Of a stretch of DNA of 35,922 bases, positions 16,049-30,355 are shown piece after piece. This DNA comes from Parcubacteria group bacterium GW2011_GWC2_48_17 (GTDB lineage Bacteria > Patescibacteriota > Minisyncoccia > Phycocordibacterales > UBA10002), in the NCBI GenBank assembly GCA_001003605.1, contig LCPL01000008.1, forward strand, positions 1-35,922. Direction: 5' to 3'. Positions within the stretch are counted from its first letter, which is position 1. Each line of letters begins with the position of its first letter. Both the position numbers and the translations under genes were made by a program. The notes below the pieces were generated by a model, which saw only the letters and a program-made list of their open reading frames with translations, was not told the origin of the DNA and searched no databases.

Positions 16049-17080
16049 ATGCGAATACGCGAATTTGTTTCTCTCAAAAAAATGACGACACTTAAGATTG
16101 GCGGTGTTGCTCGCTATTTTTGTGCCGTGGAAAGGGCGGAGGAACTCTCGGAGGCGCTCGCCTTCGCTCGCGAAAAGAGAATTAACCTTGTCGTGTTTGG
16201 CGGTGGCTCCAATGTGCTCATCGCAGATGAAGATATTGACGCGCTCATTATCAAAATAGATATTAAGGGAATTGGCTGGAAAGAGGATAGTGAAGATGTT
16301 TTAGTAGTTGCCGGCGCCGGAGAGAGTTGGGATGGATTGGTTGCGAAAGCGGTCCGGCGCGAACTCTGGGGTGTTGAAAATCTTTCGGGCATTCCCGGTA
16401 CGGTGGGCGCCGCTCCCATCCAAAACATAGGAGCGTATGGCACGGAGATAAAAGAAACGCTTGCATGGGTGGAAGTCTTTGACACAAGGAGTGGAAAGTT
16501 CCGAACACTGTCAAACAAAGAGTGCAAGTTCGGCTACCGCGACAGCATTTTCAAGCGCCCGAAGGGAAAATCGCTTATCATAACGCGCGTGGCGCTGTGG
16601 CTCAAAAAGAGCGGAACACCCAATCTTGAATATAAAGATTTGAAAGAGAGATTTAGGATTTATGATTTACGATTTAAGAAAAAGAGACTGACTCCGTTGG
16701 ATATACGGAAAACAGTGCTTGAGATTAGAAGCAGAAAATTTCCGGATTTGAGAACACACGGCACTGCCGGCTCGTTTTTCAAAAACCCCATCATTTCACA
16801 GGGGAAATTCAACAAACTCAAGAAGAAATTCCCGGACCTCCCCGGCTTCCCAATCTTTACAAGGTTCAAGATTCCCCTTGCCTGGATTCTTGATAACGTG
16901 TGCGGTCTCAAAGGATTTTGCAAAGGCAACGTAACTTTGTTTGAACGCCAGCCAATCGTCATCGTACAAAATGGTAAGGCGTCCGCGGAAGAAATTAAAT
17001 CGTTTGCTAAAGAGATTTCTGATAAAGTGAAAGCGAAAACCGACATCGACATCGAGTGGGAAATACAGCAGATATGGTAG
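16049..17080 (+). CDS. murB: UDP-N-acetylmuramate dehydrogenase
   Basis: TTLKIGGVARYF, VVFGGGSNVLIADEDIDALII, GAGESWDGLVAKAV, NLSGIPGTVGAAPIQNIGAYGTEI, GYRDSIFK, HGTAGSFFKNP. Confidence 0.95.
   Translation: MRIREFVSLKKMTTLKIGGVARYFCAVERAEELSEALAFAREKRINLVVFGGGSNVLIADEDIDALIIKIDIKGIGWKEDSEDVLVVAGAGESWDGLVAKAVRRELWGVENLSGIPGTVGAAPIQNIGAYGTEIKETLAWVEVFDTRSGKFRTLSNKECKFGYRDSIFKRPKGKSLIITRVALWLKKSGTPNLEYKDLKERFRIYDLRFKKKRLTPLDIRKTVLEIRSRKFPDLRTHGTAGSFFKNPIISQGKFNKLKKKFPDLPGFPIFTRFKIPLAWILDNVCGLKGFCKGNVTLFERQPIVIVQNGKASAEEIKSFAKEISDKVKAKTDIDIEWEIQQIW
16648..16682 (+). repeat. GATTTA-word array inside murB (gatttag gatttat gatttac gatttaa)
   Basis: Four gattta words at 7-nt spacing encode the anomalous RFRIYDLRFKKKR segment. 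Confidence 0.8.
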
Positions 17081-17559: not shown

Positions 17560-20205
17560 ATGTTCGACCGTATCAAGAAACTTTTCGGCGACGATTCGGA
17601 GGCCAAACTAAAGCCGTTATACGCGAATGTCCAAAAGATAAATAGTCTGGAGGCGGGCCTTTTGGGGCTTTCGGGGAACGCGCTTAAGGAGAAAACCACA
17701 GAATTAAAGGCCCGTGTGCAAAAAGGCGAGTCGCTTGACGACATTCTTCCCGAAGCGTTCGCGCTCGTACGTGAAGCAGCCCGCCGTACTTTAGGCGAAA
17801 GGCATTTTGACGTCCAACTTCTCGGCGGTCATGTACTCCATAACCACGGCATCGCCGAGATGCGCACCGGTGAAGGAAAGACGCTCGTCGCAACGCTTCC
17901 TTCATATTTGAACGCACTCGCGGGAAAAGGCGTGCATATCGTTACCGTCAACGATTACCTCTCAAGAAGAGATGCGGTGTGGATGGGGCAGATACACCAC
18001 CTGCTCGGACTCTCGGTGGGGGTTATCAATCACGATTCGTCATTCATATACGACCCTGCTCACAGTTCTGGAAAGGGAGCAGGTGGAATTTCCAATTTCC
18101 AATTTCCAATTTCCAAACAAGGCGAAAATCTCAAATCAGAAAATCCAAACAAAGATAAAGATGACCAATTGGATAAAACAAGAGATGAACTTGGGAGTTT
18201 CCGGGTAGTGCATGAATTCTTGAAACCATGCACACGGCGCGAGGCTTACGCCGCGGACATCACTTATGGCACCAACAATGAATTCGGCTTTGATTATCTT
18301 CGCGACAACCTTGAATATTCTCCGGAGCGCCTGCGCCAGCGCGATTTCAACTACGCCATCGTGGACGAAGTTGATTCTATTCTCATAGACGAGGCGCGAA
18401 CGCCACTCATTATTTCCGCGCCGACGGGGGATTCCGGAGACCTCTACGCCAGGTTCGCGCAAATTGTTCGAGGGTTAGAAAGAGACACGGATTTTACCGT
18501 GGATGAAAAACAGAAAGCTATTCAACTCACTCCAGCGGGTATCGAGAAGGCGGAAAAAGCGCTTGGCGTGGATAATCTTTATACGGAGAAGGGCATTAAA
18601 TACGTACATCACCTTGAGACCGCCGTTCGCGCCAAAGCGCTCTTTCATCTTGATAAGGAATATGTCGTACGAAACGGTGAAATAGTGATTGTAGACGAAT
18701 TCACCGGCCGCATGATGCCAGGACGCCGTTGGAGCGAGGGGTTGCACCAGGCGATTGAAGCGAAGGAAGGTGTGAAAGTCCAGAAAGAATCCCGCACCTT
18801 CGCGTCCATCACATTCCAAAATTATTTCCGAATGTATAAGAAACTCGCAGGGATGACTGGCACGGCCAAGACAAGCTCAGAAGAGTTTTACAAAGTGTAT
18901 GGCTTGGATGTGGTTTCTATTCCGACAAATAAGCCCATCGCGAGAGCCGACAGAAACGACCAGATATTCCAAACGGAGAAAGGGAAGTTCAAGGCTATCG
19001 CGAAAAAGGTCGCGGAACTCAATCAAAGAGAACAACCGGTGCTTATCGGCACGGTTTCAATTGAAAAGAACGAAGTGCTTTCAGAGTATCTCCGCTCGGT
19101 GGGCGTGCCGCATGAGGTTCTAAACGCCAAAAACCACGAGCGCGAAGGGGAAATAATTGCCCAAGCGGGACGGAAAGGAGCAGTGACGGTTGCGACCAAC
19201 ATGGCAGGTCGCGGCGTGGACATCAAACTCGGAGGCAATCCGCAAGTAAAGGAGGATGCGGAAGCGGTAAAATCGGTGGGAGGGCTCTTTGTTCTCGGCA
19301 CTGAGCGGCACGAAGCGCGGCGCATTGATAATCAGCTCCGCGGGCGCTCGGGCAGGCAAGGAGACCCTGGAGAAACGCAGTTTTTCGTATCAATGGAGGA
19401 CACGCTCATGCGCGTGTTTGCCGCCGACACTATCAAGAACATGATGGGGCGTTTTGGCATACCAGAAGATGAGCCGATAGAAAACCGCATCATCACTCGT
19501 TCGCTCGAAACCGCGCAGACAAAGATTGAGGGGTTCAATTTTGACGCAAGGAAACACGTGCTTGAATATGACAATGTGCTAAACCATCAGCGAAGCGTCG
19601 TGTACGAACGCCGAAGAAATATACTCGTTGGTGGCGGGGTGGCGGCTGAGGACTACCTCACACTTATCGGGGCGGGGAATGAGGCATTCCAAAAATCGGT
19701 GGAAGAAAAGAAGAAACAGCTCGGTGACGACTTCTATCCCGCCATTCAACGTCTCATTCTCCAAACAATTGACTTATTTTGGGTTGAGCATCTGGAGGTA
19801 ATGGATTACCTTCGCGGCTCGGTGAACCTTCGCGCCTATGGCCAGCGCGACCCGCTTGTCGAATATAAAAAGGAGGGACTTCAGATGTTCAAAGAAATGG
19901 AGGAAAATATCGTCGCGCAAGTGATGAATATTCTCCCGCGTGTCGGGGGACCAACTCCAGCGCCAGAGCAAATTAAATTACAGGAAGTGCATGAACAAGC
20001 CCAGCTCATCGGCTCGGGCGATGAAGAATCGGACGCGAAGCATCGGGGAAATGTCTCACGGTCCAATGTCCCCACCAACCCCGATGGGTCAAAACTCGGC
20101 AGAAACGACCCCTGTTACTGCGGAGTGGTGAACACAAATACAGGAAAAGTTTATAAGTATAAACAGTGCGGACTGATAAACGCCCCATATCATCGCAGAG
20201 CGTAG
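17560..20205 (+). CDS. secA: Preprotein translocase ATPase SecA
   Basis: MRTGEGKTLVATLPSYLNAL, VTVNDYLSRRDA, ITYGTNNEFGFDYLRDN, VDEVDSILIDEARTPLIIS, ATNMAGRGVDIKLGG, DNQLRGRSGRQGDPG, C-terminal GRNDPCYCG. Confidence 0.97.
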   Translation: MFDRIKKLFGDDSEAKLKPLYANVQKINSLEAGLLGLSGNALKEKTTELKARVQKGESLDDILPEAFALVREAARRTLGERHFDVQLLGGHVLHNHGIAEMRTGEGKTLVATLPSYLNALAGKGVHIVTVNDYLSRRDAVWMGQIHHLLGLSVGVINHDSSFIYDPAHSSGKGAGGISNFQFPISKQGENLKSENPNKDKDDQLDKTRDELGSFRVVHEFLKPCTRREAYAADITYGTNNEFGFDYLRDNLEYSPERLRQRDFNYAIVDEVDSILIDEARTPLIISAPTGDSGDLYARFAQIVRGLERDTDFTVDEKQKAIQLTPAGIEKAEKALGVDNLYTEKGIKYVHHLETAVRAKALFHLDKEYVVRNGEIVIVDEFTGRMMPGRRWSEGLHQAIEAKEGVKVQKESRTFASITFQNYFRMYKKLAGMTGTAKTSSEEFYKVYGLDVVSIPTNKPIARADRNDQIFQTEKGKFKAIAKKVAELNQREQPVLIGTVSIEKNEVLSEYLRSVGVPHEVLNAKNHEREGEIIAQAGRKGAVTVATNMAGRGVDIKLGGNPQVKEDAEAVKSVGGLFVLGTERHEARRIDNQLRGRSGRQGDPGETQFFVSMEDTLMRVFAADTIKNMMGRFGIPEDEPIENRIITRSLETAQTKIEGFNFDARKHVLEYDNVLNHQRSVVYERRRNILVGGGVAAEDYLTLIGAGNEAFQKSVEEKKKQLGDDFYPAIQRLILQTIDLFWVEHLEVMDYLRGSVNLRAYGQRDPLVEYKKEGLQMFKEMEENIVAQVMNILPRVGGPTPAPEQIKLQEVHEQAQLIGSGDEESDAKHRGNVSRSNVPTNPDGSKLGRNDPCYCGVVNTNTGKVYKYKQCGLINAPYHRRA
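18087..18180 (+). repeat. Heptamer array inside secA (TTTCCAA x4, then AAATCTC AAATCAG AAAATCC AAACAAA ...)
   Basis: aatttccaatttccaatttccaatttccaaacaa in frame, encoding ISNFQFPISKQGENLKSENPNKDKDDQLDKT. Confidence 0.88.
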
Positions 20206-20303
20206 CGGAGTCCTGTAGTGAACCGCAGTCTTAGAGGTTCTACTACTGGGATAGTTCCGGCAAAAAGTTCAAGAAGTGTCATGGGCAATGAGGATAAAAA
20301 AAT

Positions 20304-21328: not shown

Positions 21329-21796
21329 ATGCCCCACATCCACGAAAAAATAGATTTTACCGTTGAAGTCTTCATTGTGCATAAAGACAAGGTACTTCTT
21401 CGCATGCATGACAAGTACAAAAAATGGATGAGCGTCGGAGGGCATATTGAACTTCACGAAGACCCGGTAGAGGCGGCGCATCGGGAGGTGAAAGAGGAGG
21501 TTGGGCTCGACATTGAGCTTGTGGGGAATCCAAGGATTTTTGAATCCGTTGACCACGGAAGGGAACTCATACCGCCAGTCGCCCTCAATCGCCACGCTAC
21601 AAATCAACCCGGCCATGAACACATTACATTCGTCTATTTCGCCCGAGCGCAAAGCGATAAAACCGCGGTAACCTATGCGGATGACGCGAGCGAGGAATGC
21701 CGCTGGTGTGCCAAAGAGGAAGTAGAGCAGATGAACCTGTGGCTGAACGTGCGGCACTATGCACTCGCTGCGCTCAATCAACTAAAAGAAGCATGA
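21329..21796 (+). CDS. NUDIX hydrolase
   Basis: GGHIELHEDPVEAAHREVKEEVGLDIEL (Nudix box). Confidence 0.93.
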   Translation: MPHIHEKIDFTVEVFIVHKDKVLLRMHDKYKKWMSVGGHIELHEDPVEAAHREVKEEVGLDIELVGNPRIFESVDHGRELIPPVALNRHATNQPGHEHITFVYFARAQSDKTAVTYADDASEECRWCAKEEVEQMNLWLNVRHYALAALNQLKEA

Positions 21797-21866
21797 TGAA
21801 TCTATTCTGATGTTCCCTGCCTCGCCGGCAGGCGGGTTGAGAATATCAGAATAGATGCGGCATGCT
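21790..21866. repeat. Nested long hairpin capped by a GCCTGCC-type palindrome
   Basis: agcatg..atctattctgatgtt / cctgcctcgccggcagg / aatatcagaatagat..catgct. Confidence 0.8.
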
Positions 21867-25294: not shown

Positions 25295-25702
25295 TTGCGT
25301 ATGAGATTTATTAAATTTTTCGACAAATTAGAAGATGAAGTCAGGGGAAAGCTCTCAAGAGCTCCCATTATCTACGGCATTATAGGCGGTACGGCCATCG
25401 TCATGTTTTGGCGAGGTGTTTGGCACACGGCAGATATGCTTGAGCAAAGCGGCGGCATCTTAGGGGTTGTATTTGGCGCTCCGATATCAACGATAATAAG
25501 CGCCATAATCCTTCTCCTCACTGGACTCTTCGTTTCTTTCTTTATAGGAGACCGCATCATTCTTTCCGGCCTTACGCACGAGAAGAAGGTAGAAGAAAAG
25601 ACCGAAAGCGAAGTTCGGGCCGAAGGGGCGCTTCTTTTGAATATGTCCGATAAGCTGAGGCATATTGAAAGAGAAATAGAAGCGATAAAGAGCAAAAAGT
25701 AG
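25295..25702 (+). CDS. Small membrane protein with C-terminal coiled coil
   Basis: Two TM segments plus a charged C-terminus. Confidence 0.6.
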   Translation: MRMRFIKFFDKLEDEVRGKLSRAPIIYGIIGGTAIVMFWRGVWHTADMLEQSGGILGVVFGAPISTIISAIILLLTGLFVSFFIGDRIILSGLTHEKKVEEKTESEVRAEGALLLNMSDKLRHIEREIEAIKSKK

Positions 25703-25755
25703 CCAAACACCAATAACCAAGAAACAAGCTCCAAACAATGCTCAATATTCAAGAT
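25692..25755 (+). repeat. Left heptamer arm of the S23 element (CCAAACA CCAATAA CCAAGAA ACAAGCT CCAAACA ATGCTCA ATATTCA AGATTCC)
   Basis: 7-nt phase; continues into the first codons of the S23 ORF. Confidence 0.8.
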
Positions 25756-26115
25756 TCCAAACAGGAGGGCGGACACTCTTTTGACTTGGAAAAACGGACT
25801 ACAGATTTTGCGAAAGCAGTTATCAAGTTGTGCATGAATCTTCCTCGCAATCCGATGAATGATCGCTTAGTCGGGCAGGTAGTGGGCTCTTCCGGTTCTA
25901 TTGGTGCGAATTACAGAGAAGCGAACGACGCGCTGGGTACTAAGGATTTTGTACACAAACTGAAGATTTCTCGAAGGGAAACAAAAGAAACAATTCATTG
26001 GTTAGAACTGATTGCCGTTGCAAATTCAGATGTAGAGAAAGAGATTTCGTTTCTTATTAAAGAATCTGTAGAATTGCGCAACATATTATCCTCAATTATC
26101 AATAAGTGTAAATAA
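25738..26115 (+). CDS. Four-helix-bundle / S23 rRNA-intervening-sequence-type protein
   Basis: FDLEKRTTDFAKAVIKLCMNLPRNPMNDRLVGQVVGSSGSIGANYREANDALGTKDFVHKLKISRRETKETIHWLELI. Confidence 0.9.
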   Translation: MLNIQDSKQEGGHSFDLEKRTTDFAKAVIKLCMNLPRNPMNDRLVGQVVGSSGSIGANYREANDALGTKDFVHKLKISRRETKETIHWLELIAVANSDVEKEISFLIKESVELRNILSSIINKCK

Positions 26116-26117
26116 TT

Positions 26118-26172
26118 TCTTTTGACTCTTGAGATTTGTTTGGTTATTGTATCTTGGTTATTGGTTATTCTC
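26118..26172 (-). repeat. Right heptamer arm of the S23 element
   Basis: Reverse complement ACCAATA ACCAAGA TACAATA ACCAAAC AAATCTC AAGAGTC, complementary to the left arm. Confidence 0.8.
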
Positions 26173-26183
26173 TATATTTTCCC

Positions 26184-27218
26184 ATGCCCGCATCTCGCAA
26201 AGTTGAACTAAGCTTTTTCTTTCTTCTCGTGGCGGCGGCCACCGCGGTGTCTTTTTTCATATTCAAGCCGTATTTCGGCGCGCTGTTTGTCGCTGTGGTG
26301 TTCGCGATTGTTTTTCGGCCCCTTTTTGAGACAGTCCACAAAAGAGTCAAAAGGGAAGGATTGGCCTCGTTCTTGACACTGGCTTTTTTATTTTTCGTGG
26401 TTCTTATTCCGGCTACGCTCTTTGGATTCTTCATTTTTGATGACGCGCGGAATTTATACGAGTCCGCCGGAAACGGCGCTTCAATCCTCTCTCGCTTGGA
26501 TGAGGCCATCCTCCCGTTCAAAGAGTACATACAAAAGATAATTCCCGGCTTTGAAATTAATATCTCCGAGTACGTGGATGCCGCCCTGTCGTTTTTCTTA
26601 AGCAATTTTGGCGGAGTCTTTACGCGGGCTATCGGCATTGTGTTCCAAACCTTTATCATGCTTTTAGCTTTGTTTTATCTTTTTCGCGACGGAGCGAAAT
26701 TCAGGTCTTATATCGTCACGCTTTCACCTCTTACCAATGAGTATGACGAGCGAATTCTAAAACGCATTGAATCCGCCATTTCTTCGGTCGTGAAAGGGAA
26801 ACTATTAATCATACTCTTACAAGGCATTCTCGCTTCTGTCGGTTTTTTCATCTTCGGCGTGCCGAGTCCAGTGCTCTGGGGCGCGATTACGGCCATAGCC
26901 GCGCTCATTCCCGCGGTTGGAGTCGCCATCGTATTTATACCTGCTGTCATATTTCTTTTCATAACGGGCGGTATGTTCTCGGCACTTGGTCTTTTGATAT
27001 TCGGCATGATTATAGGGTCCATAGACAATCTCCTTGGTCCAGTGCTCTTTGAGAAAGGCCTCCTGATGCATCCGCTCTTCATTCTCCTCTCGGTGCTTGG
27101 CGGTATCGTGTTTTTCGGCCCCGTCGGTTTCCTTGCCGGTCCGGTCGCCCTCTCGCTCCTTTTGGCGCTTTTGGATATCTATCCGCTGCTGTTTCAAAAC
27201 AACGATAATAACCAATAA
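26184..27218 (+). CDS. AI-2E family transporter
   Basis: LFYLFRDGAKFRSYI, KGKLLIILLQGILASVGFFIFGVPSPVLWGAITAIAALIPAVG, LGPVLFEKGLLMHPLFILLSVLGGIVFFGPVGFLAGP. Confidence 0.88.
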   Translation: MPASRKVELSFFFLLVAAATAVSFFIFKPYFGALFVAVVFAIVFRPLFETVHKRVKREGLASFLTLAFLFFVVLIPATLFGFFIFDDARNLYESAGNGASILSRLDEAILPFKEYIQKIIPGFEINISEYVDAALSFFLSNFGGVFTRAIGIVFQTFIMLLALFYLFRDGAKFRSYIVTLSPLTNEYDERILKRIESAISSVVKGKLLIILLQGILASVGFFIFGVPSPVLWGAITAIAALIPAVGVAIVFIPAVIFLFITGGMFSALGLLIFGMIIGSIDNLLGPVLFEKGLLMHPLFILLSVLGGIVFFGPVGFLAGPVALSLLLALLDIYPLLFQNNDNNQ

Positions 27219-27300
27219 CCAAGATACAATAACCAAAGGACGAGAATTTTCTTGCTCTGCGCTTTGTTTGGTTATTGTTTCTTGTATCTTGGTTATTGAA
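27205..27300. repeat. Gene-less interrupted palindrome with the same ATAACCA word as the S23 element arms
   Basis: aataaccaataaccaagatacaataaccaaa ... tttggttattgtttcttgtatcttggttatt. Confidence 0.88.
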
Positions 27301-27328: not shown

Positions 27329-28237
27329 ATGCCTCAAACAATCATCACCCACGACGGCAAGTTCCACGCGGATGATGTTTTCGCCGTAGCGGCTCTTCTT
27401 ATTCTTAATAAGGACGCGAAAGTAGTCCGCACGCGCGATTCGCGTGTGATTCTTGGGGGCGATATAGTCGTTGACGTTGGAGGGGTCTATGACGAACAAA
27501 AGAACCGATTTGACCATCATCAGATAGAGGGTGTTGGAACTAGAAAAAATGGCCTGCCTGTCGCGGCAGGCGTGGCACATGCAGGCATTCCGTATGCCGC
27601 GTTTGGGTTAGTTTGGAAGAAATTCGGCGAGAAACTTTGTGGTGACACATCGGCTCAAAGTCGCGTGGAAGAGATTCTGGTGGTTCCAATTGACGCGAAC
27701 GACAACGGCATTGACCTTTCACTGCCCAAATTTCCGGGGAATTTTTCGTACGAAATTTCCGATGTTGTGCGCTCGTTTACTCCAACGTGGCAGGAAGGGG
27801 AATCTTACCTCGAGAGCAATTTTAATGAGGCGGTGTCTTTTGCGCGGCGGATTATTGAACGTGAGATACAGCGCGCGAAAGCATTTGTGGCTGGAGAGCA
27901 AAAAGTACAAGCCGTGTATAACGAGGCGGCGGACAAGCGGCTTATTATTTTGGACGGAGATTATTCTTGGAAGGATGTTCTCTCGCGATTTCCCGAACCT
28001 CTGTATGTCGTGCATCCGCAAAACGGAACGTGGCGGCTCTACTCTGTCCGCGACAATCCGCATCTTTTCGTAAATCGCAGGGATTTGCCGCAAAGCTGGG
28101 CGGGACTTCGGGACGCGAAACTCGCGAAGATAACTGGCGTTCCAGATTCTGTTTTCTGCCATCGGAATAGGTTTATGGCAGTCGCAAAAAGCAAGAATGG
28201 CGCAATCGCACTTGCGAAACTCGCGCTTGATTTTTAA
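27329..28237 (+). CDS. MYG1/UPF0160 family metal-dependent hydrolase
   Basis: ITHDGKFHADDVFAVAALLIL, RFDHHQ, IPYAAFGLVWKKFG, PIDANDNG, WAGLRDAKLAKITGVPDSVFCHRNRFMA. Confidence 0.88.
   Translation: MPQTIITHDGKFHADDVFAVAALLILNKDAKVVRTRDSRVILGGDIVVDVGGVYDEQKNRFDHHQIEGVGTRKNGLPVAAGVAHAGIPYAAFGLVWKKFGEKLCGDTSAQSRVEEILVVPIDANDNGIDLSLPKFPGNFSYEISDVVRSFTPTWQEGESYLESNFNEAVSFARRIIEREIQRAKAFVAGEQKVQAVYNEAADKRLIILDGDYSWKDVLSRFPEPLYVVHPQNGTWRLYSVRDNPHLFVNRRDLPQSWAGLRDAKLAKITGVPDSVFCHRNRFMAVAKSKNGAIALAKLALDF
27554..27586 (+). repeat. 33-nt in-frame insertion-like segment with GCCTGCC palindrome in MYG1
   Basis: gcctgcc-tgtcgc-ggcaggc hairpin (27552-27571); encodes LPVAAGVAHAG between KNG and IPYAAFG. Confidence 0.75.
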
Positions 28238-29514: not shown

Positions 29515-29532
29515 ATCCCCACACGTCAACCC

Positions 29533-29553
29533 GTTCGACATCGGATGTCGGAC
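29533..29553. repeat. REP-like palindrome, left of the RAYT gene
   Basis: gttcgacatcggatgtcggac. Confidence 0.85.
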
Positions 29554-29576
29554 AAAGATGTGGTATGATGTTTCGT

Positions 29577-30305
29577 ATGGCGTACCGACGTACCGCATTC
29601 ACCCCAGGTGAGCATTATCATCTCTACAACAGGGGTAACAACAAACAAGAAGTATTTCACAACGAAGGTGACTATATTCGCTTCTTGTTTTACCTGCTGT
29701 ACTATCAATCACCACTTACATTTTCCAGACTGTCCGAGAAAGTCTCCAATTTTAAGCGAAGTGAGGAGTTTGGCACCCCCGTACACGTACACAACAAAAT
29801 TATTTCTAAACGGACAGTTGCGCTAGTAGGGTTTTGTCTCATGCCGAATCACTTTCACCTTGTCGTGCAGGAAACTGAAGGCGGAGGCATTTCTAAATAT
29901 ATGCAGCGCGTGTTAAATGGATATTCAAAGTACGCTAATAAGAAATATCCCGAAAGACACATCGGTCACGTTTTTCAGGGTCCTTTCAAAGCCGTTCACC
30001 AAAAGACGAATGAACAGCTTTTGTACCTTTCCGCGTATGTACACAGGAATCCAAGAGAACTTACCGCGTGGACAGACAAGGAAAGGCAATATCCGTGGTC
30101 AAGTTTCCGAGACCTTTCAGGTCAGAACCGATGGGATACACTACTCTTACACGCCGTCATTTCGAAGCAGTTTAAGGGAGGCAAGGACTATGAAAAATTT
30201 GTTAACACCAGTAGTGCAAAAAGTGAATACAGAAGACTTTTGCTTGATAACGAGATTTTTCTTGAAGCGGGACTGGAGCAGGAGGAAGGCGAGGTTATTG
30301 TGTAA
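29577..30305 (+). mobile_element. REP-associated tyrosine transposase (RAYT, Y1/IS200-like)
   Basis: HYHLYNRGNNKQEVF, GFCLMPNHFHLVVQ (HxH), KYMQRVLNGYSKYANKKY, GHVFQGPFKAV, YVHRNPRE, YPWSSFRD. Confidence 0.92.
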
Positions 30306-30320
30306 ATTTAACGCACTTTC

Positions 30321-30355
30321 TGTCCGACATCCGATGTCGGACACGATGTCGGACA
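30321..30355. repeat. REP-like palindrome, right of the RAYT gene, plus a half copy
   Basis: tgtccgacatccgatgtcggaca followed by cgatgtcggaca. Confidence 0.9.

Follow-up and report, generated by a model that had tools for sequence, protein, structure and literature searches.

The closest known systems to the palindromes described here are the Rickettsia palindromic elements RPE-1 to RPE-7 (Ogata et al.) and the Wolbachia palindromic elements. Rickettsia palindromic elements lie in frame in conserved, essential genes, the peptide that they encode is solvent-exposed, and relatives can carry different elements at one and the same position (PMC2229807, PMC3767692). They measure about 100–150 bp and occur only in Rickettsiales, and RPE-4 and RPE-6 bear a CGTC terminal tag (PMC3733652). 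REP and BIME sequences are GTAG- and CGTC-tagged hairpins of 20–40 bp that are present in many copies per genome, sometimes within genes (PMC3733652). Bacterial MITEs with open frames (ERIC, Correia and RU-1/2/3) are small non-autonomous elements that are fused in frame to genes (PMC2229807).

We analysed a stretch of DNA of 35,922 nucleotides (the window). It is contig 8 of a genome of 1.03 Mb, for which the closest relatives with a name are Candidatus Taylorbacteria. The features at issue are as follows:

27329–28237, + strand: MYG1-family gene (DHH-type, PF03690; Pfam E 1.6e-70; AlphaFold2 mean pLDDT 94.2), host of the insert
27553–27585, + strand: 33-nt in-frame insert CCTGCCTGTCGCGGCAGGCGTGGCACATGCAGG between GG and C, missing from every homologue compared
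27553–27570, + strand: 18-nt palindromic core CCTGCCTGTCGCGGCAGG of the insert, with arms CCTGCC/GGCAGG, located by pattern search
21816–21832, + strand: intergenic palindrome CCTGCCTCGCCGGCAGG of the same CCTGCC/GGCAGG family, located by pattern search
21790–21866, + strand: 77-nt hairpin (inverted repeat; DNA fold −24 kcal/mol, z = −6.3) with the 21816–21832 palindrome as its tip

Like Rickettsia palindromic elements, the Patescibacteria palindromes lie in frame in genes for conserved proteins, and the MYG1 insert is apparently surface-exposed, as inferred from the disorder of a segment with pLDDT below 50. Unlike those much longer elements, the inserts are 18, 24, 33 and 39 nt in length, lack the CGTC tag of RPE-4 and RPE-6, and are characterized by CCTGCC arms and one dominant six-residue peptide. 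The family was also traced in a different group, Patescibacteria (Rickettsiales were outside our search for CCTGCC arms). These comparisons support a parallel with Rickettsia palindromic elements, of different sequence, that the first-pass annotation had drawn; the MYG1 insert is not a Rickettsia element itself, and the Patescibacteria palindromes appear to form a separate, undescribed family. With REP and BIME sequences they share size class, hairpin formation, high copy number per genome and an occasional intragenic position. Unlike REP sequences, they have no GTAG or CGTC tag and do not flank the 30 Y1_Tnp loci that we examined, and the 18-mer is predominantly found in genes. They resemble the MITEs in being small, non-autonomous and in frame, but neither the size of MITEs (100–200 bp) nor their typical TA target duplication was seen here, although a duplication of 1 nt remains possible. 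Mitochondrial GC-rich hairpin elements (yeast GC clusters and double-hairpin elements) are likewise very short palindromes spreading in small genomes, although they belong to another lineage and have another sequence, and the similarity is one of resemblance only. A literature search for palindromic in-frame inserts in Patescibacteria, for LPAQAG and for LPAGRQAG, which did not cover preprints or most subscription papers, found no description.

The insert in the MYG1 gene

The first-pass annotation had proposed that this gene carries an in-frame insert of 33 nt with a palindrome inside it, and both points were confirmed. The insert adds eleven codons, which encode LPVAAGVAHAG between N74–G75 and I87 of the protein, giving the reading TRKNG-LPVAAGVAHAG-IPYAAFG. 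At the DNA level, the site reads AATGG-CCTGCCTGTCGCGGCAGGCGTGGCACATGCAGG-CATT, and relatives have AACGGCATT or AATGGCATT instead. Because GGC is present on both flanks, the edges of the insert are ambiguous by 3 nt, with the best fit at 27553–27585. The 33-mer starts with CCTGC and ends with GCAGG, and its first 18 bases form the palindrome, which has a six-base centre. Ten MYG1 loci from the same genus read RKDN-IPYAAFG or similar across the site, with no additional residues; the closest relative (75–78% identity) is among them. It was missing, too, from 33 loci of the genome collection, which came from Patescibacteria, Actinobacteria, Clostridia, a Nanoarchaeon and Gammaproteobacteria; these overlap partly with the genomes of the ten same-genus loci and contribute about two dozen additional homologues. 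LPVAAGVAHAG-like residues in all distant MYG1 orthologues had been named as the result that would refute an insertion, and none of the compared loci contained them.

In an AlphaFold2 model based on a 32-sequence alignment (mean pLDDT 94.2), pLDDT fell below 50 only at residues 77–83, within the insert. According to this model, the insert is a disordered loop a few residues past the DHH motif, and from the predicted disorder we infer that it is exposed on the protein surface. The most likely effect of the insert on its host protein, again by inference, is near-neutral. A structure search with the model returned only weak, low-TM-score matches to RecJ-type DHH proteins and was set aside.

The MYG1 palindrome occupies a GG|C site and is read in the phase of the family's coding copies described below. 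Its exact 18-nt core had no second occurrence in 387 genomes of the class, a 23-nt stretch of the insert had no match in viral contigs, and only a modest hairpin is predicted for it (z = −1.06). As the core is unique, membership of the family rests on its arms, phase, target site and empty site, not on an identical copy. The intergenic palindrome does cap a hairpin, as had been annotated, and this 77-nt structure separates a NUDIX gene from a cytidylyltransferase-like gene. The description of the two palindromes as near-identical was slightly strong: the CCTGCC/GGCAGG arms are common to both, but the loop differs.

Distribution, in-frame copies and target sites

A search of the window's genome, one of the checks that the first-pass annotation had suggested, revealed enrichment of the pattern CCTGCCN{3,8}GGCAGG (10 matches versus 0 for the reversed control); the same arms with N{0,30} gave 18 matches versus 3. 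The shorter pattern was present in 88 of 147 genomes of the order, often with 5 to 35 matches (controls, 0 to 2). Phylum-wide searches showed that the palindrome is spread across the phylum with the same patchiness and abundance, reaching 66 copies in a single genome; a few genomes in these searches gave 4 to 9 control matches. One perfect 18-mer of the family was found in 40 of 387 genomes of the class, with no matches for the control. These genome-wide statistics rest on pattern searches and sampled stretches, and the genomes analysed appear, with few or no exceptions, to be metagenome assemblies. The favoured centre of the palindrome, as judged by pattern search, differed by genome within the genus. 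Genome G004 contained about 14 copies of CCTGCCTAGGAAGGCAGG, G006 contained about 10 copies of CCTGCCTGCGCAGGCAGG, which is a perfect 18-bp member, and CCTGCCCGCCGATTGGCAGG was the favoured centre in G001 and G005. Such genome-specific centres are a mark of recent lineage-specific amplification.

The copies in G004 lie in a longer nested-hairpin repeat, GAAACTACAGTTTCCCCGACCCC...CCTGCCTAGGAAGGCAGG...GAGTCATTAAA, with about 14 near-identical copies (L111–L123, ~1440–1550) and the CCTGCC palindrome at its tip. This repeat is mostly intergenic, and its architecture is related to that of the 77-nt hairpin element of the window.

In G006, G003 and G009, the perfect 18-bp palindrome CCTGCCTGCGCAGGCAGG was located in genes for an EPSP/MurA-type enzyme, SecA, RecJ, a class I (Cys-type) tRNA synthetase, RNase H, a HAD/P-type ATPase and others (families were assigned by Pfam, and RNase J and finer names by reading). 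Every copy in those genes read xLPAQAGx. Orthologues of MurA, CysRS, RNase H, RNase J, L068 and others had gaps of exactly six residues (18 nt) at these positions, as did one relative in the case of SecA. For example, YKISD-LPAQAG-GIYFDT is matched by YKTAD-GIYFDT, and FAPR-LPAQAG-RADIFSA by FAPR-RTDIFSA, in sister-genome orthologues. RNase R and alanine racemase of G006 contain 8-residue inserts from a related palindrome, with 8-residue gaps in their orthologues. The comparison of empty sites in sister genomes, which had also been suggested, thus yielded clean 18-nt and 24-nt gaps and shows insertion of exact length; in clean pairs, the net insert equals the length of the element, and a 1-nt target duplication remains possible. 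The SecA insertion was common to G006 and G003 and missing in G010.

Comparison with solved structures gave a clean six-residue gap for ThrRS and an eleven-residue gap spanning the insert for IF-2. In ATP synthase beta (AtpD), the palindrome site is a variable loop, and the copy in GyrB lies directly before a conserved ISIQRYKGLGEMN segment. Gaps were inexact for AtpD and, in distant relatives, for RecJ and SecA, because the site is a naturally length-variable loop. A second in-frame case in the window's genome is a 39-nt net palindromic insert (ACLPPAGRRGGAGRRRGG region) in MurC, amounting to 13 residues relative to G004 and situated in a more variable region (L368, G000:C17 ~16430–16480).

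At one point in RecJ (L130, L170 and L179), G006 has LPAQAG, G010 has a different palindrome (PPANRRAG) and G003 has neither. This site may be a hotspot, or one element may have been replaced by another.

To quantify frame and length, we used 86 distinct 18-mer copies sampled from the class and counted a copy as coding if it lay in a clear open reading frame of at least 200 amino acids, with the next frame below 60% of its length. Sixty of the 86 copies were in clear genes, and 52 of these 60 (87%) were in the LPAQAG phase (p = 1.6e-17 versus 1/3; p = 4e-9 versus the 0.51 that GRY targets by themselves would give). Neither of the remaining phases, PACAGR and CLRRQ, contains a stop, so avoidance of stop codons does not explain the bias. 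Copies of 19–20 bp, which are not multiples of three, were largely intergenic (5 of 41 coding versus 60 of 86 for 18-mers, p = 8e-10), and 5 of 7 copies of 21 bp were coding. Whether coding copies keep to one reading frame and to lengths that are multiples of three was another check that had been suggested, and the counts favour both. As the 18-mer and 19/20-mer samples came from different genomes and the reading-frame criterion is crude, the p-values are only indicative. As a control, 18-mer copies from viral contigs were examined, and they showed no phase bias (4, 4 and 1 in the three phases). Insertion points favoured GR|Y, with GR at −2 and −1 and Y preferred at +1. Among 67 phase-2 copies, a purine was present at −1 in 66 and G at −2 in 48; a purine at −1 was also found in 24 of 26 non-coding or unclear copies.

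Origin of the palindromes

We consider it likely that the MYG1 insert is a copy of a phylum-wide family of tiny hairpin-forming repeats, with CCTGCC/GGCAGG arms and a variable centre, that has spread as non-autonomous insertions. In the mechanism that we propose, the element would enter at GR|Y without detectable target duplication. Within genes, surviving copies would be those with a length divisible by three that read in the phase NNC-CTG-CCT-...-GCA-GGN, yielding a small-residue peptide, LP..AG, and that land in a surface loop, where the host enzyme could tolerate them. Of this, the data show directly that whole units of exact length were inserted, that frame, phase and target are biased, that the MYG1 copy lies in a loop and that the family is spread over the phylum. 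We infer that the elements move through a hairpin (single-stranded) intermediate and that the phase is fixed by selection, not by the insertion machinery. A more far-reaching proposal, which we put forward only tentatively and regard as doubtful, is that Patescibacteria host the smallest known family of mobile elements: a self-complementary 18-bp unit whose length and sequence are tuned to pass essential genes as the benign hexapeptide LPAQAG, inserted by an undescribed enzyme that places a DNA hairpin at GR|Y.

It is unlikely, though not to be dismissed, that RAYT (Y1, IS200/605-like) transposases encoded in the genome itself mobilise the palindromes, which would then be REP-type elements. 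IS200/605 chemistry inserts without target duplication, which fits such an origin; RAYTs act on hairpin repeats (PMC3733652), and Y1_Tnp genes were present in 17 of 18 genomes tested. Against this, none of 30 Y1_Tnp loci was bracketed by CCTGCC palindromes, most being flanked by other palindromes of their own that are gene-specific (TGTCCGACATCCGATGTCGGACA in the window and CCCACAGGTCSGACCTGTGGG in G425), G154 had 27 pattern matches and no Y1_Tnp match, and no GTAG or CGTC tag was conserved in the flanks. Y1 transposases such as the one at 29565–30305 are therefore unsupported by their flanking palindromes as movers of the CCTGCC family, and no transposase or other mobilising gene could be linked to it from the 30 Y1_Tnp loci examined. 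As Y1/RAYT genes were never bracketed by CCTGCC palindromes and a genome rich in them has no Y1_Tnp match, the mobilising enzyme remains unknown. One could also suppose that the palindromes are a signal, for example for DNA uptake or chromosome organization, that arose, wherever the sequence permits it, through point mutation and biased conversion. The arms are conserved phylum-wide while the centres vary, uptake sequences of other bacteria also form inverted pairs and have frame preferences, and the two different palindromes at one RecJ site in sister genomes suggest conversion. We nevertheless find a signal of this kind highly improbable, since the gaps in orthologues match the element length exactly and point mutation does not yield such gaps.

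For the MYG1 copy alone, an origin outside the family could be invoked, as a local quasi-palindrome or a template-switch duplication (two GCAGGC copies lie 15 nt apart): its centre and 15-nt extension are unique in 387 genomes, and its single-strand hairpin is not significant. Such a local origin is quite unlikely, given that the copy has the family's arms, phase and GR|Y target, a length divisible by three and a clean empty site. An assembly or sequencing artefact is scarcely conceivable even with genomes that are all or nearly all apparent metagenome assemblies, in view of the 52 of 60 copies in one phase, the identical SecA insertion in the independently assembled G003 and G006, and the occurrence of palindromes in many unrelated assemblies across the phylum.

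The spread of a non-autonomous repeat family, which is the reading that we prefer, would bear on several matters. Streamlined, probably host-dependent bacteria are expected to purge extra DNA from essential genes, yet the 18-bp repeat recurs in gyrase B, SecA, IF-2, tRNA synthetases and cell-wall enzymes across the phylum. A phenomenon known mainly from Rickettsia now extends to one of the largest bacterial radiations, and the copies amount to dozens of natural experiments on how well proteins tolerate insertions. For annotation, short LP..AG stretches in these proteins should not be taken as domains. The question posed is which enzyme inserts an 18-bp palindrome at GR|Y.

Other repeats in the window

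The Y1/IS200-like (RAYT-type) transposase gene at 29565–30305 is accompanied by inverted TGTCCGACATCCGATGTCGGACA-like palindromes at 29524–29554 and 30321–30351, and comparable gene-specific pairs flank many other Y1 genes (L317, L324, L329, L340 and L342). The SecA gene of the window (17560–20205) contains a long additional segment, SSGKGAGGISNFQFPISKQGENLKSENPNKDKDDQ, at ~18075–18163, in the same loop as LPAQAG in G006 and G003. Part of it (18115–18154) is related, as a direct repeat, to AT-rich repeats that lie between genes at 20297 and 23138 and is possibly a second class of in-frame repeat. A gene for a 23S-rRNA-intervening-sequence-type protein (PF05635, 25738–26115), away from any rRNA gene noted, lies within 25694–26180, enclosed by 59-nt inverted AT-rich repeats, and this 59-nt repeat recurs at 27196–27297.
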